A stretch of 38,733 nucleotides of DNA from Acidobacteriota bacterium. GTDB lineage: Bacteria > Acidobacteriota > Aminicenantia > S016-38. The DNA lies in the NCBI GenBank assembly GCA_015486055.1, contig WFSJ01000025.1, positions 65,189 through 103,921 on the forward strand. The letters are read 5' to 3'. The first letter of the stretch is position 1; each line of letters opens with the position of its first letter. Shown here one piece after another: positions 13,876 to 28,311 of the stretch. A program made the position numbers and the translations under genes. The notes under the pieces were generated by a model. It did not search any database and had not been told where the DNA came from. It saw nothing but the letters and a program-made list of their open reading frames with translations.

Positions 13876-15027
13876 ATGAAAAAGTTTATTTTGTTTCTTA
13901 TGATTTCAGGGCTCCTGATCGGAGGGGCAAAAGAGTTTGACCTAAAGGTCTCAAAGGTAAGGAAATTCATGAAAAGGGAAAGCCTCACAGGCATGCTCCT
14001 TTCCACACAGAGGAATTTTGCATGGCTCACTGATGGAGGAACAAGCACAGTTGTTATTGCTTCAGAGATTGGAACAGTTTCTCTCCTTGTTACTTTGAAA
14101 AAGGTTTATCTTCTTGCACCGAATGATGAGGTCCGCAGGTTTATGGACGAGGAATTAAAGGGCTTAAATGTTGAGCCTGTAGTCTTTAAATGGTATGAGG
14201 ATGTTGATTCCGGCAAGAAGCTATCCCTTGCAAAAAAGCTCGGTGGCCCAAGTTTGGGCTCTGACCTCAAGCTTCCAGGGATAATCTTCATCGAAAACAG
14301 ATTCAAAACCCTAAGATATGTTCTCACTCCTGAAGAGATAAAAAGATATAGGTTAGTAGCAAGAGAGGCGGCAGAGGCAGCAGAGGCTGTGGCAAGGGAG
14401 ATTAAAAGAGGGATGAGCGAAGGTGAGATAAGAGCTCTTACATCCTATGAACTTTACAAAAGAGGACTTGTTCCAACTGTATTGCTTATAGGGGTTGACA
14501 GCGGATTTATGAAATACAGGCATGTCATTCCAAAGGGGAGAAAGCTTAAAAAATACGCTCAGGTAAATATCTGTGCAAAGAAATGGGGACTTGTTGTTGC
14601 TGTGACAAGACTCGTTCATTTCGGTCCACTACCGAAAAAGATAAGGAAACGCCAGAATGTTGCGGAAAAGGTATATGCTGCCTTCATGTATGGTCTAAGG
14701 CCTGGCGCAAAGGTCTCAAAGGTTTTCAGAGAAGCTGTGGAGGTTTATAGTAAATATGGCTATCCCCATGAATGGGAAAATCACCATCAGGGAGGCGCAA
14801 TAGGTTACAATGAGCGGGAGTATATAGCAACTTTAAACAGCAAGGAAGTAGTTCATCTGAATCAGGCATTCGCCTTTAATCCAACCCTTGAAGGAGCAAA
14901 GGTGGAAGACACTGTTCTTGTTACTAAAAAAGGGATAGATGTTTTGAGTTATACCGGAAACTGGCCTTACAAGAAAGTTAAATATAAAGAGAAAACCTAT
15001 TTAGTCCCTGATATATTGATAAGATGA
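13876..15027 (+). CDS. Exported M24 (creatinase/aminopeptidase P fold) protein with most metal ligands lost
   Basis: A 383-residue protein with a hydrophobic signal sequence (MKKFILFLMISGLLIGG) and the two-domain creatinase/prolidase layout. The N-terminal domain (residues ~25-150) contains LLSTQRNFAWLTDGG. The pita-bread domain runs from ~152. In M24 enzymes two metals are held by Asp, Asp, His, Glu and Glu. Aligning by eye, the positions here are Asn231 (QVNICAKKWG), Ala242 (VVAVTRLVHFG), Gly307 (HHQGGAIGY), Asn335 (FAFNPT) and Glu344 (KVEDTVLVT), so only the last glutamate remains. Catalysis by the usual two-metal mechanism is unlikely; creatinase shows that metal-free chemistry is possible on this fold, and binding is another option. 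A longer in-frame extension to 13711 exists, but promoter, GAGGT and signal peptide all favour 13876. The stop overlaps the symporter start (ATGA). Confidence 0.75.
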   Translation: MKKFILFLMISGLLIGGAKEFDLKVSKVRKFMKRESLTGMLLSTQRNFAWLTDGGTSTVVIASEIGTVSLLVTLKKVYLLAPNDEVRRFMDEELKGLNVEPVVFKWYEDVDSGKKLSLAKKLGGPSLGSDLKLPGIIFIENRFKTLRYVLTPEEIKRYRLVAREAAEAAEAVAREIKRGMSEGEIRALTSYELYKRGLVPTVLLIGVDSGFMKYRHVIPKGRKLKKYAQVNICAKKWGLVVAVTRLVHFGPLPKKIRKRQNVAEKVYAAFMYGLRPGAKVSKVFREAVEVYSKYGYPHEWENHHQGGAIGYNEREYIATLNSKEVVHLNQAFAFNPTLEGAKVEDTVLVTKKGIDVLSYTGNWPYKKVKYKEKTYLVPDILIR

Positions 15028-16541
15028 AGGAACTGTTTGCCCAGCACATAGATGTTTTTCTTGTAGTAGTCTATCTCCTTTCAATATTCGCTTTCGGGCT
15101 TCTTTTTAAAAAATTTGTTGAAAACACAGAGGATTATTTTCTTGCAGGAAGGGCACTTCCCTGGTGGGTTATAGGCATGTCCATAATAGGGACAAACATC
15201 GGGGCTTACGACTATATAGGAGCAGCAGGAGGAGCTTATAGGTTCGGTATAGCTCAGGCAAACTATGAGTGGCTGGGCGCTATCCCTGCCATGATAATTT
15301 CGGCCCTTGTCATAGTCCCCTACTACTGGAAAAATAAGGTTTATACAGTTCCCGAGTTCCTTGGAAAAAGATACAAAGAAGGAGTGAGGGTAATAGAGGC
15401 AGCAATTTACGGAATTTTTCTCGTAATGCTCCTCGGGATTTTCTTCTGGGCCTCAGGGATAATGCTCCACACATACCTTGGATGGTCAATCAGTATGAGT
15501 ATAGTAATTACAGCAATTGTTGTTGGGGTCTATACAATAACAGGAGGACTTGCCGCGGTTGCAATAACAGATGTTGTCCAGCTCGGAATAATGTTCGTAG
15601 GGGGATTTGCAGTGGCTGCTGTCGGATTTATAAAGGCAGGTGGCGTGGGAAAATTCTTTGAAGTTTTAAGGGCAGCTCATCCACAACATTTGAAAATCTT
15701 TCTTCCTCTTAACAACCCAGCGTATCCATGGTTGGGAATGATATTGGGCCTTGGTCTCGTGCTCTCCCCTGCCTGGTGGTGTGCAAATCAATCAATAATT
15801 CAGAGGACTCTTGGAGCAAGAAGTGAATGGGATGCTAAGGCAGGAATGATGTTTGCTGCATTTCCAAAAACCCTGATTCCTGTGCTTGTAGTTCTTCCTG
15901 GATTCTTTGCTCTGACCTTTGCACCGACAGGAGCAATTCACAATCCGGACCAAGCACTGCCCTGGGTCGTAAAGAGCTTCCTCCCCCCTGGCCTCGGCGG
16001 ACTCGTATTTGTTGCCTTCATAGCTGCTCTACATTCAAGCGTTGACTCCACACTTAACTCTGCTGCCACTCTCTGGACAAAAGATATATACCAAAAATAC
16101 ATAAAAAAAGCCGCTTCTGATAAGCATTACCTCCTCTTTGGAAGAATTCTCACATTCGCATTTATAATCTTCGGGGTGATATTTGCCCCATTTACAGATA
16201 AATTTCCAGGAATATATGTGGCAATGCAAACTCTTCTTTCCTTTTTCCAAGGACCAACCCTTGCGACCCTTCTACTTGGAGTTCTATGGTGGAGATCAAC
16301 AGGATGGGGAGGATTATGGGGGCTTGTTGCTGGGGTCGCCTCAGCAGTGACCCTTTCAATTTTCAGGGTCAATTTTCTCTATGTTGCATGGTGGTCTTTT
16401 GTTATCTCTCTCATTATTAACTTTATTGTGAGTCTCGCAACTCCATCTGAGCCGCCAGAGAAACTAAGGGGCCTTGTCTATAAATATCTTGAGAAGGATT
16501 CCCAGTTTGCAGAAGCTGTAAAAAGGAGGCTGAATGGGTAA
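15024..16541 (+). CDS. Sodium:solute symporter (SSS family)
   Basis: A 505-residue inner-membrane carrier with about 13 hydrophobic helices, in the SSS/SLC5 family that includes PutP, PanF and SGLT. Family features are ENTEDYFLAGR after helix 1, GGLAAVAITDVVQ at about helix 5-6, the WWCANQSIIQRTLGAR segment, and ALHSSVDSTLNSAATL. In this last segment the Ser residues correspond to the Na2 sodium site. Solute identity cannot be read from the sequence. Coupling to the exported M24-like gene upstream (4-nt overlap) points to a peptide- or amino-acid-derived solute or an N-methyl compound; this is inference. The C-terminal tail is cytoplasmic and charged, and the next small membrane gene begins inside its last codons. 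Confidence 0.92.
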   Translation: MKELFAQHIDVFLVVVYLLSIFAFGLLFKKFVENTEDYFLAGRALPWWVIGMSIIGTNIGAYDYIGAAGGAYRFGIAQANYEWLGAIPAMIISALVIVPYYWKNKVYTVPEFLGKRYKEGVRVIEAAIYGIFLVMLLGIFFWASGIMLHTYLGWSISMSIVITAIVVGVYTITGGLAAVAITDVVQLGIMFVGGFAVAAVGFIKAGGVGKFFEVLRAAHPQHLKIFLPLNNPAYPWLGMILGLGLVLSPAWWCANQSIIQRTLGARSEWDAKAGMMFAAFPKTLIPVLVVLPGFFALTFAPTGAIHNPDQALPWVVKSFLPPGLGGLVFVAFIAALHSSVDSTLNSAATLWTKDIYQKYIKKAASDKHYLLFGRILTFAFIIFGVIFAPFTDKFPGIYVAMQTLLSFFQGPTLATLLLGVLWWRSTGWGGLWGLVAGVASAVTLSIFRVNFLYVAWWSFVISLIINFIVSLATPSEPPEKLRGLVYKYLEKDSQFAEAVKRRLNG

Positions 16542-16737
16542 TTTTTTAAGAAGCATTCCACTCTACTGGGCAAAGATAATTGCAGGAAGTTTATATGCTC
16601 TGCTTGCAATTTGGGTAATAACAAGGCCAAGGGAATACATCTACAGGGGAACCCCGGGGAAGGGTAAATGGAGAGACCTAAGAATATGGGCCATAATCTT
16701 AATTGGAATTCAGATTTTTCTATATATAATTTTTTGA
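16534..16737 (+). CDS. Small two-helix membrane protein, possible symporter accessory subunit
   Basis: A 67-residue protein with two predicted membrane helices (about residues 11-29 and 48-66) and a basic loop (RPREYIYRGTPGKGKWRD) between. It starts 8 nt inside the symporter gene behind a near-perfect AAAGGAGG (16522-16529), so it is clearly translated. No family is recognised. Its tight linkage and size are like the small accessory subunits of some sodium symporters, which is inference from position. Confidence 0.7.
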   Translation: MGNFLRSIPLYWAKIIAGSLYALLAIWVITRPREYIYRGTPGKGKWRDLRIWAIILIGIQIFLYIIF

Positions 16738-16744
16738 GGTGAAG

Positions 16745-16930
16745 ATGAAAAAAAAGCTGAGAGCATTCGGAATAATTGGAATCTTCTGGGGAATTTTTGG
16801 CTCAATAGTGGCGCTTTCCGCACTTATTGTTGAAGAAAAAATTTCAAAAATTATAAACCTTGCCTCTGGATTTACCTTAATTCTCATGGCACTCCTGTTT
16901 TTTTATCTTGACAGAAAACAGAGAAAATGA
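16745..16930 (+). CDS. Small two-helix membrane protein
   Basis: A 61-residue protein with two hydrophobic helices (roughly 8-25 and 34-54) and a basic C-terminus (DRKQRK). The ATG at 16745 sits behind GAGGTG at 16736-16741, which is better than the in-frame GTG at 16739 that lies within that site. It follows the preceding small membrane gene by 7 nt, and its stop overlaps the next start by 4 nt. No family is recognised. Confidence 0.6.
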   Translation: MKKKLRAFGIIGIFWGIFGSIVALSALIVEEKISKIINLASGFTLILMALLFFYLDRKQRK

Positions 16931-17394
16931 AAATTCTTAAGCCTGAGGTCATTGATGGGAAAAATATACCATCTTTATTTTTAAAGAGAGAAACAATATA
17001 CCTTCCTTTCTATATTTACAGGGCAAAGTATACGGGGGGAAGAGAAATTTATATGATGATAGACGGTATAAAAGGAAAATCTGTAAAAATAGACGAGAAA
17101 ATTTTAAAAAAGCCTGTTGATTCTACCGGAAAATTTGAAGCAAGTATTTCAAAAGAAAAAGCGGATGAAATAGCCCTTCAAGAAATGAGATTTCCTATTG
17201 GAATTTTCTTTAAAAAGAGGCTCGAAAGTCTGAAATTCATAGATAAGCTGTTGTATCCATTCCTTGTTTATTATAGAAAAAAGGGAGACGGTTTTGATAT
17301 AGAACTTTTTGATGGGCTGACAGGCAAGAAGGAAAATCTATTTGCGAAAGAAATGGTGATTTCCATTATTGTTAAATCAGGAAAGAGCAAATAG
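16927..17394 (+). CDS. Hypothetical protein, last gene of the symporter operon
   Basis: A 155-residue, mostly soluble protein with no signal peptide. It opens with a short strand-rich part (LPFYIYRAKYTGGREIYMMIDGIKG, beginning near residue 26) that looks like half of a small beta-meander. A central lysine-rich helix region follows (EASISKEKADEIALQEM), then a second strand-rich part (YPFLVYYRKKGDGFDIELFDGLTG), so the molecule may hold two similar halves. The YxVxY...DG-TG pattern also occurs in domains that process exported proteins, but I cannot name a family. It overlaps the preceding membrane gene by 4 nt and is followed by no clear terminator. Confidence 0.6.
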   Translation: MKILKPEVIDGKNIPSLFLKRETIYLPFYIYRAKYTGGREIYMMIDGIKGKSVKIDEKILKKPVDSTGKFEASISKEKADEIALQEMRFPIGIFFKKRLESLKFIDKLLYPFLVYYRKKGDGFDIELFDGLTGKKENLFAKEMVISIIVKSGKSK

Positions 17395-17503: not shown

Positions 17504-18124
17504 ATGAAGAATCTGGTTATTTTGGTCACAATATTGGCTTTTGTGGGGCTTCTCGCTTTTTGTGGAGGTAACAAGGCAGGGAAAGAAGCTGAAAAGCAGA
17601 CCCAAGAAGCTTCAAAGAAGCTTACCGAGGTCGCAAAGGGATTTCAGGAAATGGGGAAGCAAATTAAGAAATCGGCTGAGAAAGAAAAGAATATTGAGCT
17701 TGTTGACTACAAGGTTCTCAAGAGTATTCTTCCCGATTTTGAGGGATGGAAGAAGGGAAATGTCAAAGGTGAAAAAAGCTCAATTGGTGCCTTTTCATTA
17801 TCAAAGGCTGAGGCTACATATACCAGGGAAAATTCAAGTATAAATTTAGAGATAACAGATGCAGCAAAGGCAAAGATAATGATGGCTCCTGTATTTATGT
17901 TCAAGACAGTAAAGGTGGAAAAAGAATCTGACACTGGATATGAAAAGACTTTCCAGGAAAAAAATTACTTCGGACACGAGGAATGGGATAAGAAAGATAA
18001 AAGCGGGAAAATCGTGATGATTTACGGGGACAGGTTTGTGATCTCCGCCGATGGAAATGATATTGAGTCAATGGATGTGCTGAAAAGTCTGATTTCCAAA
18101 ATAGACTTATCAAAGCTGAAATAA
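17504..18124 (+). CDS. Exported putative lipoprotein, tandem paralogue A
   Basis: A 206-residue protein with a hydrophobic leader ending in LLAFC-GG. The cysteine at 20 could be lipidated, although Phe at -1 is atypical for a lipobox. Residues ~25-65 form a Lys/Glu-rich helical, probably coiled segment. The domain at ~68-206 is clearly homologous to that of the next gene: LPDFEGWKKG with AEATYTREN against FPALKGWLKSG with ADVTYTKGN, and NDIESMDVLKSLISK against NIESMEILKKLISK. I do not recognise the domain. It has its own promoter and is followed by an intrinsic terminator, so it is made as a single-gene message. Envelope location is inferred from the leader. Confidence 0.7.
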   Translation: MKNLVILVTILAFVGLLAFCGGNKAGKEAEKQTQEASKKLTEVAKGFQEMGKQIKKSAEKEKNIELVDYKVLKSILPDFEGWKKGNVKGEKSSIGAFSLSKAEATYTRENSSINLEITDAAKAKIMMAPVFMFKTVKVEKESDTGYEKTFQEKNYFGHEEWDKKDKSGKIVMIYGDRFVISADGNDIESMDVLKSLISKIDLSKLK

Positions 18125-18167
18125 ACATTGGTTGTTTATAAGCTTACAAGTTTCTAAAAAATACCTT

Positions 18168-18200
18168 GGAGGGATGAGAAATCTCTCCTTTTCTATTTTT
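18168..18200 (+). terminator. Intrinsic terminator between the tandem paralogues
   Basis: GGAGGGA (18168-18174) pairs with TCTCTCC (18182-18188) around a 7-nt loop, with one G-T wobble. The T-rich tract from 18189 follows. Confidence 0.65.
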
Positions 18201-18257
18201 CTCAGTTTTTATGCTAAGATATAACAAGCAATTTTACGGAATGGGACGGAAGAAAAA

Positions 18258-18842
18258 ATGAGATATTTGGTTATTTTGCTGATAATTATTGGAATTGGCG
18301 GGTTCATTTTTTACTATGGAAAGGGGGAAGTCTCCTCCAAGATAAATCACGAGCTTAGAAAGGTAGGAATTGACTCCTCAAAACTTGGGGAAAAGCTTCA
18401 AAAAACAGCAAAGAGCATAACAAAAGTAAAGCCTATCAAGCCACAAATGCTTAAAAATTCCTTTCCTGCTCTTAAAGGGTGGCTTAAATCCGGAGTTACG
18501 GTAGAAAAAGGTCCCTCATTTTCCAAAGCGGATGTTACCTATACTAAAGGAAACTCAAAAATATATCTGAAAATGATTAGTGCCGAGGATTTAAAGACAC
18601 TCGGCACCACTGAACTTATGGAATTCCAGGGAAAAATTGAAAGCGAATCAAAAAATGGCTACGAGAAAAGCAGCAAAGAAGATGAATTCTTTAAATATGA
18701 GAAATGGAACAAGAAAGAAAAATCAGGGGAAATAATGGAAGTTCACAAAAATAATCTTCTTGTTTCAGCAAAAGGCCTCAATATTGAGTCAATGGAAATA
18801 TTGAAGAAGCTTATCTCTAAGGTAAAGCTACCTCTCCATTGA
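18258..18842 (+). CDS. Membrane-anchored tandem paralogue B
   Basis: A 194-residue protein with an N-terminal hydrophobic helix (residues 3-20, ending FIFYYGKGE) and no lipobox cysteine, so it is probably a signal anchor rather than a lipoprotein. A short helical linker leads to a domain (~56-194) homologous to that of paralogue A upstream. Shared positions include GW near the start, (E/D)xTYTxxN(S), the GYEK segment, W(D/N)KK-KSG, and IESM(D/E)-LK-LISK at the end. One DNA block of about 16 nt (ATATTGAGTCAATGGA) is identical in both genes, consistent with a duplication that has since diverged. A TATAAC box lies 33 nt before the ATG. Function unknown. Confidence 0.7.
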   Translation: MRYLVILLIIIGIGGFIFYYGKGEVSSKINHELRKVGIDSSKLGEKLQKTAKSITKVKPIKPQMLKNSFPALKGWLKSGVTVEKGPSFSKADVTYTKGNSKIYLKMISAEDLKTLGTTELMEFQGKIESESKNGYEKSSKEDEFFKYEKWNKKEKSGEIMEVHKNNLLVSAKGLNIESMEILKKLISKVKLPLH

Positions 18843-18992: not shown

Positions 18993-20396
18993 ATGAAAGG
19001 CTCTAAGAAAGGCTTGATAGCTTTGGCGATGTTTTTGCTTGGCTTTGGATACGCTTTCTCGGCGGATAAAGGGATAACTCCTGAAGTCCTAAAAATCCTC
19101 AAGAGTTCTATTGATGTTCATTCTCCTCAAACAAGGGCATTGATAAATGCTGTCTCAAAGAACGAAATGAGGAATCTCGCTGAAAACAAAGAGGTAAAGG
19201 ACAAACTCTTTGACAGAAATTTTTCTTTCAAGTTAAAAACAAAAGGAGTCACAAATCAAAAGAGCAGCGGAAGGTGCTGGCTTTTTGCAGGGTTGAACAT
19301 TCTCAGATATAAGGTTGCCCAGAGGCTAAACCTTGAAAAATTTGAGCTTTCCCAGAGCTATAGCTTCTTCTATGACAAGCTTGAAAAGGCAAATCTCTTC
19401 CTTGAAAAGATAATAGAAACAAGAAACAGGAAAATAACGGATCGGAAAGTTGTTTATCTTCTCAAACATCCCATTTCAGATGGGGGACAGTGGAACATGG
19501 TGGTAGATTTGCTTAACAAATATGGTGTTGTTCCAAAAGAAATTATGCCAGAGACTTACCACAGCTCAAACACAAGGGGTCTAAATCGTATTCTTTCAAC
19601 CCTTCTGAGGAAATACGCTGCAAAAATAAGGGAATCAAAGAAAAGCGATGAGGAACTCAGAAAAGATAAAGTTGAAATGCTCAAGAATGTGTATAAGATC
19701 CTTGTATATACCTTTGGAAATCCCCCTTCAGAGTTCAAATGGAGATATAAAGATAAGAAGGATAAGCTTTCCCCATGGAAGACATATAACCCAAAAAGTT
19801 TCCTTAAAGAGGTGGTAAAAACGGATCTGAACGATTATATTGTTATATATAATTGTCCTGCCAAGGATTACTATAAGCTCTACTCAATTTCCCTTGATAG
19901 AGACATGGCTGACAGACCTGACCTTACATTCCTGAATCTTCCAATCCAGGAGGTTAAGAAGCTTACAATTCAAACCCTTACTCAGGATAAGGAACCCGTC
20001 TGGTTCGGATGTGATGTAGGAAAGGAGCTCCTGAACAAGGATGGAATAATGGCTCCTGATGTTTATGATTACAAAGCATTGTTCGGAATAGACTTTTCCA
20101 TGACGAAAAAACAGATAATTCTCTACAGACACTCTATTCCAACCCATGCTATGGTATTTACAGGGGTTGACCTTAATACTCAGGGCAAACCTGTAAAATG
20201 GCTTGTGGAAAACAGCTGGGGCACAAAGGCCGGGAAGAACGGAATGTATACGATGTATGATAAATGGTTTGACTATTATCTGTATCAGGTAGTAGTGCCA
20301 AAGAAAAACTTGCCTCCCAAGCTCCAGAAACTTTTAAAGCAGAAACCCACAAGCGTTCCTCCCTGGGACCCTATGTATGATTTCTTCAGTCACTAA
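18993..20396 (+). CDS. Bleomycin-hydrolase/aminopeptidase C-type cysteine peptidase (C1B) with signal peptide
   Basis: A 467-residue papain-superfamily peptidase of the PepC/bleomycin hydrolase branch (C1B), which trims N-terminal residues from peptides. The catalytic set is intact: Gln89 (TNQKSSGRCW), Cys95 (GRCWLFAGLN), His385 (PTHAMVFTGVD) and Asn407 (VENSWG). The length agrees with PepC (~440-450) plus a leader. The leader is the odd part: residues 1-23 (MKGSKKG followed by a hydrophobic core ending GYAFSA) form a signal peptide, whereas classical PepC and bleomycin hydrolase are cytoplasmic hexamers. The enzyme would therefore work in the periplasm or outside. GGAGG precedes the ATG, and TAAAAT at 18970-18975 is a possible -10. 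The flanking genes are also exported proteins, which fits extracytoplasmic peptide breakdown. Confidence 0.9.
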   Translation: MKGSKKGLIALAMFLLGFGYAFSADKGITPEVLKILKSSIDVHSPQTRALINAVSKNEMRNLAENKEVKDKLFDRNFSFKLKTKGVTNQKSSGRCWLFAGLNILRYKVAQRLNLEKFELSQSYSFFYDKLEKANLFLEKIIETRNRKITDRKVVYLLKHPISDGGQWNMVVDLLNKYGVVPKEIMPETYHSSNTRGLNRILSTLLRKYAAKIRESKKSDEELRKDKVEMLKNVYKILVYTFGNPPSEFKWRYKDKKDKLSPWKTYNPKSFLKEVVKTDLNDYIVIYNCPAKDYYKLYSISLDRDMADRPDLTFLNLPIQEVKKLTIQTLTQDKEPVWFGCDVGKELLNKDGIMAPDVYDYKALFGIDFSMTKKQIILYRHSIPTHAMVFTGVDLNTQGKPVKWLVENSWGTKAGKNGMYTMYDKWFDYYLYQVVVPKKNLPPKLQKLLKQKPTSVPPWDPMYDFFSH

Positions 20397-26148: not shown

Positions 26149-28311
26149 GTGAAAAATATAAGAAGGTTCGGCACCTTTGATGGAGTTTTTCTTCCCACCA
26201 TTCTGTCTTTATTTGGCGTTATTCTTTTCCTCAGGACTGGATGGGTAGTGGGAAATGCAGGGTTAATTAATGCTCTTATTATCCTATCAATTGCTGAGTT
26301 TATATCCTTTGCCACAGCGCTCTCTCTCTCAGCCATTTCTACAAACATTAAGGTAGGAACTGGTGGGGTTTATTACATCGTGTCCAGAAGCCTTGGAGTA
26401 AATACAGGGGGTGCTATTGGAATTCCACTTTATCTTTCCCAGGCCATTTCTATTTCCTTTTATATCATCGGTTTTCTTGAATCTGTGCAAATTCTCATAG
26501 GTAGCAACATTAATTTTAAGATATGGGGCACGGTTGTTCTTCTCCTATTTTCCTTTCTTGCCTATGAAGGTGCGGATTTCGCTGTGAAATTTCAATATTT
26601 AATCTTCTCCTTGCTTGTGCTTGGTATATTGTCATTCTTGATTACCCCCCATTGGATTCTCTTAAAGGTTAATTTTACAGCTCATTACAGCAATTCCTAC
26701 AACTTCTGGAAAGTTTTTGCAGTATTTTTCCCTGCTGTTACAGGAATAACAGCAGGAATTGGCCTTTCCGGGGAGCTTAAGGATCCAGAAAAGAACATTC
26801 CTATAGGCTCAATTACGGCAGTGGTAATTAGTTTTATAGTCTATGGCTTGGTTATGTGGAAAGCTGCATCTCTGGAACCCTCTCGAGTGCTCATAGAAAA
26901 TACAGGGGTCTTTGTAAAGGATGCAACCATCCCAATTCTAGTAATTTTAGGAGTCTGGGCTGCCACAATCTCCTCTGCTCTGACCTTTACCCTTGGGGCT
27001 CCCCGAACTCTAAAAGCCCTTGCCGACGATGGAGCGGTCCCTAAATTTATGGCTTCTACCCTGAATTCAAAAAAGCAGGAACCTCGTATGGGAGTCATCG
27101 TAAGTTTTTTTATAGCCGAAGCTTTCATATTGCTGGGTTCACTTAACCAGGTTGCTACAGTAATCACAATGTTCTTTCTCATTACTTATAGTGTTTCCAA
27201 CTATTCAGCAGGAATTCAAGGAATAATTGGCAATCCAAGCTATAGGCCAAGATTTAAAGTTCCATGGACAATCTCCTTTGCAGGTTTTGCTGGAACTCTT
27301 CTTGCTATGTTTCTCATAAGTCCTGAAGGTATGATAGTGGCTGCCTTAGCAATTTTAGTCGTATATTTTCTACTTAAAAGAAGAGGATTACATCAAACAT
27401 GGGGAGATGTAAGAGCTGGTTTCTGGATTTCTTTGGCAAGATTTGCACTTATAAAGCTTAAAGAAACTAAACTTGACCCTTTGAACTGGAGACCAAACCT
27501 AATGGTTTTTACCGGAAATCCAGAAACAAGACTTTATCTCTCAAAAATGGCAGATTGGCTTTCAAGGGGAAAAGGGATAATAACACTTTTCAATATTGTA
27601 GAGTGTTGTTCTGATAGAGCTTCTCTTGATAGAGAGAAAGAGCTTCAGAAACTGAAAGAGTTTATCTATAGAAACAAATTGACTGCATTTGCAGAAGTTG
27701 AGATGGTGAAAGACCCCTGGGAGTCTATTCCGTGTATAGCCCAAGCCCATGGAATAGGAAAGCTCTATTCTAATGTAGCTCTATTCGGATGGGGACAGCA
27801 TCCTCAAAAAGAGAATCACCTAATAAAAATCATAAAACGCCTTATATGGCTTAACAGAGATGTTCTTATCCTGAAATATGATAAATCAAGGGGCTTTGGA
27901 ACACAAAGGACCATAGATATATGGTGGGGTGGAAGAGGTGGAAATATTGAACTCATGCTGCTCCTTTCCTACATAATATTGATGAATGATGAATGGAAAG
28001 GTGGAAAAGTCAGGATTTTGAGGACAGTTTCCGACAAAACTAATATGGAAACGGTCAGGGAAATTACAGAAAAGAAACTTTACAGTGCAAGATTAGATGC
28101 CGATGTTAAAATTATCCTTAACGCAGAATATCGTCCGTTAAAAGAACTAATGGAAAAGTTCTCAAAAGAGGCTGACCTTACAATTGTAGGGCTTCCTGTG
28201 CCAAAAGAAGGAGAGGAAAAAACAATAAGTAAAAAGATAAATGACCTTATAAGTCCCCTTGGTTCTGTGCTTTTGGTAAGGAGCACATTTAAAAAAGAAG
28301 TTTTTCTATAA
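26149..28311 (+). CDS. SLC12-like cation-chloride cotransporter / APC-superfamily permease
   Basis: A 720-residue membrane protein of the amino acid-polyamine-cation superfamily, closest in my reading to bacterial relatives of the Na-K-Cl and K-Cl cotransporters. The opening FGTFDGVFLPTILSLFGVIL with RTGWVVGNAG is the typical first-helix signature of that family. GTGGVYYIVSRSLG follows, then FFPAVTGITAGIGLSGELKDPEKNIPIG, a hallmark of SLC12 proteins (quoted here in parts: FFPAVTGI, SGELKDPEKNIP). About 12 helices fill residues 10-410. The C-terminal ~300 residues are soluble, as in SLC12, and end in a nucleotide-binding-like region (ADLTIVGLPVP, then SVLLVRS). The only usable start is GTG at 26149, because an in-frame TAA lies 12 nt upstream. 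There is no ribosome site, so a leaderless message is likely. Ion specificity is unknown. Confidence 0.85.
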   Translation: MKNIRRFGTFDGVFLPTILSLFGVILFLRTGWVVGNAGLINALIILSIAEFISFATALSLSAISTNIKVGTGGVYYIVSRSLGVNTGGAIGIPLYLSQAISISFYIIGFLESVQILIGSNINFKIWGTVVLLLFSFLAYEGADFAVKFQYLIFSLLVLGILSFLITPHWILLKVNFTAHYSNSYNFWKVFAVFFPAVTGITAGIGLSGELKDPEKNIPIGSITAVVISFIVYGLVMWKAASLEPSRVLIENTGVFVKDATIPILVILGVWAATISSALTFTLGAPRTLKALADDGAVPKFMASTLNSKKQEPRMGVIVSFFIAEAFILLGSLNQVATVITMFFLITYSVSNYSAGIQGIIGNPSYRPRFKVPWTISFAGFAGTLLAMFLISPEGMIVAALAILVVYFLLKRRGLHQTWGDVRAGFWISLARFALIKLKETKLDPLNWRPNLMVFTGNPETRLYLSKMADWLSRGKGIITLFNIVECCSDRASLDREKELQKLKEFIYRNKLTAFAEVEMVKDPWESIPCIAQAHGIGKLYSNVALFGWGQHPQKENHLIKIIKRLIWLNRDVLILKYDKSRGFGTQRTIDIWWGGRGGNIELMLLLSYIILMNDEWKGGKVRILRTVSDKTNMETVREITEKKLYSARLDADVKIILNAEYRPLKELMEKFSKEADLTIVGLPVPKEGEEKTISKKINDLISPLGSVLLVRSTFKKEVFL

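Follow-up and report, generated by a model that had tools for sequence, protein, structure and literature searches.

A five-gene cluster around a predicted sodium/sugar symporter

The window analysed here, a 38,733-nucleotide stretch of an Acidobacteriota genome, carries five tightly packed genes between positions 13876 and 17394, all on the forward strand:

13876–15027, forward strand: P0001, 383 amino acids, a protein of a metal-free M24 branch, predicted to be exported (HHQGG at 303–307, H216, N335, K342, E344)
15024–16541, forward strand: P0002, 505 amino acids, predicted SGLT-type sodium/sugar symporter, without the last transmembrane helix of its single-chain relatives
16534–16737, forward strand: P0003, 67 amino acids, two predicted membrane helices, the last resembling the symporter's missing C-terminal helix
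16745–16930, forward strand: P0004, 61 amino acids, two predicted membrane helices, known so far only in the host family
16927–17394, forward strand: P0005, 155 amino acids, soluble, without a known domain, kept in the operon

An open-frame check gives overlaps of 4, 8 and 4 bases and a single 7-base gap, which bears out the overlapping or nearly touching genes described in a first-pass annotation. The gene order is identical in all seven host-family genomes examined (the host and six others), so that the neighbourhood is indeed conserved in related genomes, and the P0001 frame is intact in each of them. Scans of the locus for sigma-70 promoters and terminators stayed at chance level. A scan of genome contigs returned three loci, two of which are members, and the viral contigs scanned held no relatives.

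An M24 fold with a conserved, metal-free site

P0001 matches Pfam Peptidase_M24 (PF00557) above cut-off at 3e-14 and aligns to Pyrococcus prolidases. The match is stronger as a full-length profile, reaching 1e-20 against prolidase/aminopeptidase P structures (1wy2, 1pv9, 5cdl), in line with the creatinase/aminopeptidase P fold proposed for this protein. Unlike these enzymes, P0001 has four metal ligands replaced, is probably exported in this clade and stands in a sugar context. None of the NCBIfam models scored above cut-off (20 bits against 575 for ectoine_DoeA_2), no creatinase chain was found among its solved relatives, and a Pfam search gave no PF01263 match. An AlphaFold model built from three sequences had a pLDDT of 41, too poor for a fold search.

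Export across the inner membrane is predicted from a putative signal peptide, MKKFILFLMISGLLIGGA, judged by eye. The earlier call of a signal peptide is backed by an N-terminal extension that is not found in cytosolic relatives and by the grouping of all extended members in one branch of the tree (92/93).

The Asp/Asp/His/Glu/Glu ligand set of family M24 is broken in P0001: the two Asp residues are replaced by N231 and A242, the His by G307 and the first Glu by Q330, and only the last Glu is retained, as E344. These assignments agree with the first-pass annotation except at the fourth ligand, which had been placed at Asn335. The ungapped HMMER alignment of P0001 with prolidase assigns Q330 instead, and N335 is a distinct residue five positions further on that is itself invariant. 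P0001 H216 aligns with H192 of Pyrococcus prolidase and is presumably the equivalent of creatinase His232.

The same pattern of lost ligands recurs in 34 bacterial and archaeal homologues. Position 231 is N, V, T, S or G, position 242 is A, S or N, position 307 is always G, position 330 is Q, M, I, A or T, and position 344 is always E. With these residues in the ligand columns, none of the metal ligands turns up at a shifted position. HHQGG, H216, N335, K342 and E344 are identical throughout, within a total of twenty-three invariant columns; H303 and H304 of the HHQGG motif, R245, R314, W50 and W106 are among them. An invariant motif set spanning bacteria and archaea supports the earlier view that these proteins form a conserved metal-free branch and not a decayed one.

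The symporter and the small proteins beside it

P0002 matches Pfam SSF (PF00474) at 1e-62 and TIGR00813 at 5e-84, the latter above cut-off. Among solved structures it is closest to vSGLT and SGLT1/2 (E = 8e-68 for vSGLT/SGLT1). At what we take to be the vSGLT sugar site, N64, Y87, E88, W264, K294 and Q428 are retained; at the Na2 site, I65, A361, S364 and S365 are. Changes across the two sites fall at A62, Q69, M73, S91, N260, Y263 and F424, among them Q69 to Asp, N260 to Ser and Y263 to Trp. The match to the two vSGLT sites is partial, with most of the sugar-site residues kept. We read P0002 as an SGLT-type carrier that couples sugar uptake to Na+, with galactose probably its substrate. Its chain lacks the last helix of its single-chain relatives.

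P0003 may supply that helix, as a detached piece of the carrier and not as a separate regulatory subunit. It scores 19.4 against the symporter tail, whereas 60 block-shuffled tails gave 11.8 ± 1.9 and at most 17.6. The HH probability, however, is only 8%, and joining P0002 and P0003 into one query brought no longer alignment to vSGLT. P0004 weakly resembles small proteins encoded after other M24-linked symporters, with an hhalign probability of 19% that is no more than suggestive of homology. Neither protein resembles the known small SSS subunits DUF485, DUF997 and DUF4212 in Pfam: P0003 has no Pfam match at all, and P0004 gave sub-threshold matches to unrelated families only. Small membrane proteins travel with the symporter, as the first reading of the locus had proposed. 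In genome G008, a symporter 72% identical to P0002 lies directly after a galactokinase gene and is followed by P0003 and P0005 orthologues.

Sugar genes around relatives

Linkage of the M24-like gene to the symporter was also part of the first reading, and it recurs in several lineages. In 9 of 23 genomes outside the host family, a homologous SSS gene lies no more than ∼6 kb from the M24 gene; 0.25 would be expected, and the maximum in 200,000 simulations was 4.

The wider neighbourhoods are rich in sugar genes. An operon of family f27 contains, in this order, an alpha-galactosidase, a glycosidase, the M24-like gene, a DUF5107-like gene, an SDF carrier, an SSS carrier, a small protein and a galactokinase, and in another genome (G228) galactokinase comes next after the M24-like gene. 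Thermus has xylA-xylB-M24 (xylose isomerase and xylulokinase), with adjacent Gfo/Idh/MocA and SDR genes. Haloarchaeal loci hold glycosidases, arabinofuranosidases and sugar ABC genes. Further loci contain beta-galactosidase, GH42, GH43, an L-fucose-isomerase-family protein with an FGGY kinase, and sugar-acid dehydratases. GMC and SDR oxidoreductases lie next to the gene in Pantoea, SDR and a galactarate/altronate-type dehydratase in family f29, and an ILVD/EDD dehydratase appears at one locus. Recurrent peptide or amino-acid genes were not seen in the surveyed loci. As exceptions, a peptidase M3 gene lies near the G008 copy, and there is one weak M14 match. That the substrate class is a sugar, and not a peptide or an amine, is well supported.

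The distribution of the known aldose mutarotase family, PF01263, was also surveyed. It is absent from all 14 genomes of the host family and families f3, f27 and f25, the host genome included, and galactokinase was present in 9 of the 9 genomes searched from the same set. The host family thus has galactokinase, though the known aldose mutarotase was not found there. Mutual exclusion of the two families in the sampled genomes of the phylum was considered and rejected as not significant: PF01263 occurs in 14 of 35 M24-positive genomes and in 179 of 361 genomes without an M24-like gene.

What P0001 might do

We tentatively interpret the cluster as a hexose uptake operon, with galactose as the favoured substrate. 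The predicted exported protein P0001 would act on the free sugar without a metal, most likely as an anomerase (mutarotase), a proposal to which we give somewhat less than an even chance. Glycosidases would release one anomer of a sugar; P0001 would equilibrate the anomers with the help of invariant residues (His, Glu, Lys, Arg); and P0002, its chain completed C-terminally by P0003, would import the preferred anomer. Cytosolic branch members would carry out the same exchange for isomerases, kinases and dehydrogenases. An extracytoplasmic step feeding the carrier, as originally suggested, is plausible; the anomerase reaction itself is what we infer.

A proposed parallel is the NanM–NanT pair, in which the anomerase is exported and the carrier selects one anomer. 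NanM is a beta-propeller protein and NanT an MFS carrier, whereas the pair here would join an M24-fold predicted anomerase to an SGLT-type carrier. The periplasmic sialic acid anomerase NanM serves NanT, an inner-membrane carrier of the beta-anomer (PMC8141875), and a mutarotase has also been found in a sulfosugar operon (PMC5902678). GalM-type aldose 1-epimerases (PF01263) would have in common with P0001 the task proposed here, providing sugar operons with the anomer they need, but their sequences are unrelated to it.

Several observations weigh against an anomerase. PF01263 and M24-like genes coexist in the 14 M24-positive genomes counted above; the DUF5107-like neighbour in f27 presumably has a mutarotase-like fold of its own; the M24 gene and symporter of G008 lie on different contigs; and the AlphaFold model is too poor to group the invariant residues into a pocket. 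The oxidoreductases and sugar-acid dehydratases at some loci (Pantoea, Thermus, f29 and the ILVD/EDD locus) would fit a lactonase equally well. The branch could hydrolyse, without a metal, a sugar derivative such as a lactone or a glycosyl ester or amide, and so free the sugar or sugar acid for the carrier or pathway, which we consider rather unlikely. Creatinase and ectoine hydrolase (EutD/DoeA) are non-peptidase, metal-free hydrolases of the M24 fold, and like P0001 they combine an altered or lost metallopeptidase site with a retained His (H216). DoeA chains match P0001 only marginally, however (3e-4), and the branch is set apart by its HHQGG and AWNP motifs and by the sugar genes around it. 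Moreover, the loci with galactokinase, xylA/xylB or fucose isomerase and FGGY kinase need no lactone step, and this reading accounts less easily for an exported copy next to a symporter for free sugars. The peptide form of the metal-free hydrolysis suggested in the first-pass annotation would make P0001 a metal-independent, creatinase-like amidase or peptidase that releases an amino acid or amine for an SSS amino-acid carrier. This would fit its fold, its Pfam assignment and the retained equivalent of prolidase H192, but P0002 is of the SGLT type and retains sugar-site residues, and the neighbours that recur and could be recognised in the surveyed loci are sugar genes, which makes this reading quite improbable.

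A non-catalytic role is also conceivable, in which P0001 is a periplasmic binding protein capturing sugar for the symporter. Its predicted export, its translational coupling to the symporter and its lost metal site are all compatible with this, and the two invariant tryptophans could stack on sugars. Yet many branch members are cytosolic and sit among sugar enzymes and not solely carriers, binding proteins usually keep fewer such residues than the His/Glu/Lys/Arg set that is invariant here, and SSS carriers are not known to depend on them; we regard this role as improbable, slightly more so than the sugar-derivative hydrolase. Least credible by far is the idea that P0001 is an M24 paralogue in decay, kept in the operon by chance: four of five ligands are lost, but the invariant columns, the seven intact frames and the conserved operon order contradict decay. 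Returning to the anomerase, its extension to the whole branch is more doubtful than the proposal for this operon: HHQGG proteins may perhaps be unrecognised metal-free pita-bread anomerases that replace GalM-type enzymes in some bacteria and archaea, exported here and paired with a split symporter.

Implications

Literature on metal-free M24 enzymes, on M24 genes with xylose operons and on M24 with mutarotase yielded nothing on the HHQGG branch, whose proteins carry the public label ‘M24 family metallopeptidase’. In haloarchaea and several bacterial phyla, then, a family annotated as M24 has sugar genes for neighbours. Its usual metal binding is impossible, and the unusual metal site together with the sugar genes around relatives indicates that the peptidase label is probably wrong. 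Should the branch prove to consist of anomerases, it would supply the mutarotase step otherwise missing from galactokinase lineages that lack PF01263, and a well-studied fold would gain a new reaction. A symporter that is truly split would offer a simple natural test of the role of the last helix in an SGLT-type carrier.

Operon architecture and conservation

The M24-fold gene opens an operon of five genes on the + strand:

13876-15027, + strand: P0001, M24-like protein, 383 residues

It is followed by an SSS/SGLT-type symporter (P0002, 505 residues), two small membrane proteins (P0003 and P0004, 67 and 61 residues) and a soluble protein of 155 residues (P0005) with no known domain. As the first-pass annotation had described, the genes overlap or nearly touch: all five were confirmed where it had placed them. 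Three of the junctions are stop/start overlaps (4, 8 and 4 bases) and the remaining one is a gap of 7 bases. The order is identical in all six other host-family genomes, and the operon is real and conserved. Among 23 genomes outside the host family, 9 have the homologous SSS gene no more than about 6 kb from their M24-like gene (0.25 expected; maximum 4 in 200,000 simulations), these nine being non-independent members of three families (f27, f25 and f16) whose surrounding genes differ. Linkage is frequent and not obligatory, because G008, a genome of the host's class, carries its M24-like and symporter genes on separate contigs.

In G003, G005 and G006, a gene for a protein of ∼1140 residues, absent from the window, overlaps the end of the P0005 gene (L042:9603-13019, L040:1305-4724); its sole family match is a sub-threshold one to M14. 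Other genes of the window include:

17504-18842: two similar tandem genes (206 and 194 residues), N-terminal hydrophobic segments, no Pfam family
18993-20396: 467-residue protein, by eye an exported C1/bleomycin-hydrolase-type cysteine peptidase
26149-28311: 720-residue permease, by eye like the SLC12 cation-chloride cotransporter group, long C-terminal domain

A metal-free branch of the M24 fold

P0001 matches the M24 profile, and its alignment with Pyrococcus prolidases spans its length. Four of the five metal ligands are replaced (N231, A242, G307 and Q330) and E344 is kept. The first-pass annotation correctly spotted a metal-free branch and four of these positions, but took N335 for the fourth ligand; Q330 is preferred because the single-sequence alignment has no gap between the glutamate of the fourth ligand and the EDT motif. 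None of 34 homologues retains Asp, His or Glu at the replaced positions, and no ligands at shifted positions were found when P0001 was aligned with them. HHQGG, N335, K342 and E344 are invariant in these homologues. In alignment A1, 23 columns are invariant: W50, G54, R88, E92, W106, E182, L204, H216, G238, R245, G295, H303, H304, Q305, G306, G307, R314, N335, G340, K342, E344, T346 and P364. H216 occupies the position of Pyrococcus prolidase H192. The structure set searched includes no member of the branch; the nearest solved chains are metal prolidases, in which a His of the GLEVHE motif stands in place of R314. The invariant charged and aromatic residues argue for an active site in P0001, which we infer from sequence because the sole structural model is poor.

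Full-length relatives occur in the host's phylum (35 of the 396 genomes sampled), in Armatimonadetes, and on Pantoea, Thermus and Nostoc plasmids as well as those of many haloarchaea. P0001 begins with MKKFILFLMISGLLIGGAKEF, read by eye as a signal peptide and missing from cytosolic relatives. The 14 aligned sequences whose N-terminal extension was taken for a signal all fall on one side of a single tree branch (support 92/93), so a single gain or a single loss of the exported form is most likely.

Sugar genes and the proposed reaction

The closest solved relatives of P0002 are vSGLT, SGLT1 and SGLT2. At what we take to be the published vSGLT site positions, sugar-site residues N64, Y87, E88, W264, K294 and Q428 and sodium-site residues I65, A361, S364 and S365 are identical in P0002; A62, Q69, M73, S91, N260, Y263 and F424 are changed. 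The G008 symporter, 72% identical to P0002, begins right after a galactokinase stop codon in a cluster that stands apart from that genome's M24-like gene. Two loci read as follows:

L098:5835-8715 (G008): galactokinase, SGLT-type symporter and P0003 orthologue in direct succession; P0005 orthologue shortly after
L071:1751-14163 (G079, f27): melibiase-family glycosidase, GH63-like glycosidase, M24-like, DUF5107-like, SDF carrier, SSS, 75-residue membrane protein, galactokinase

The second is apparently a complete galactoside operon. Galactokinase also comes after the M24-like gene in G228. In f25 the genes run glycosidase, M24-like, SSS, porin; f16 loci include a fucose-isomerase-family protein, FGGY kinase or GH42 beta-galactosidase, and f29 loci an SDR, MFS carrier, sugar-acid dehydratase and GH43. 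Thermus plasmids carry xylF, permease, ATPase, ROK, xylA, xylB, M24-like and Gfo/Idh/MocA genes; haloarchaeal plasmids, glycosidases and sugar ABC genes; those of Pantoea, a GMC oxidoreductase and MFS carrier; and those of Nostoc, malQ. In each of the nine annotated plasmid loci examined, a carbohydrate gene or plausible sugar oxidoreductase lies near the M24-like gene. A sugar role for the branch is highly probable, and this replaces a peptide reading of P0001.

More tentatively, P0001 may be an anomerase, a proposal we hold at somewhat short of even. Anomer interconversion would be useful alike to kinase, isomerase and dehydrogenase pathways, and on both sides of the membrane. Mutarotases raise flux where the next enzyme or carrier accepts one anomer (PMC5902678), and periplasmic NanM performs mutarotation for NanT, a transporter of the beta-anomer (PMC8141875); P0001 and P0002 could form a parallel pair. 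None of the 14 genomes from the host family and three others has the GalM-type aldose epimerase PF01263, and each of the nine searched for galactokinase has it. This pattern is consistent with an anomerase, with support limited because the phylum-wide difference is small (PF01263 in 14/35 M24-positive versus 179/361 M24-negative genomes) and because in f27 a DUF5107-like protein adjoins the M24-like gene. A lactonase or other sugar-derivative hydrolase would fit the dehydrogenase loci equally well.

Small proteins beside the symporter

The single-chain SSS relatives of f27, f25 and f16 have an extra helix at their C-terminus (YKNEW.W...LN.IFW). P0002 and its G008 orthologue are without it, their chains running about 20 residues past the segment that closes with GLVY, and P0003, whose gene comes next in both cases, has a similar helix at its own end. 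In hhalign, P0003 was placed on the single-chain terminal helix with both C-termini aligned, scoring above all 60 block-shuffled controls though with low HH probability. P0003 could be the detached last helix of the symporter. In f27, f25 and f16 the symporter gene is followed by another two-helix protein (67-75 residues), which P0004 weakly resembles; neither P0003 nor P0004 matches known SSS small-subunit families. Several families have a 67-72-residue two-helix protein with a WWG motif behind the SSS gene (L074:5800-6200, L077:5640-6110, L079:11740-12060, L099:5976-6182), and the f27 copy had no Pfam match.

The M24 fold and the SGLT symporter are of known kinds; the M24-like branch itself may represent an unrecognised enzyme class.
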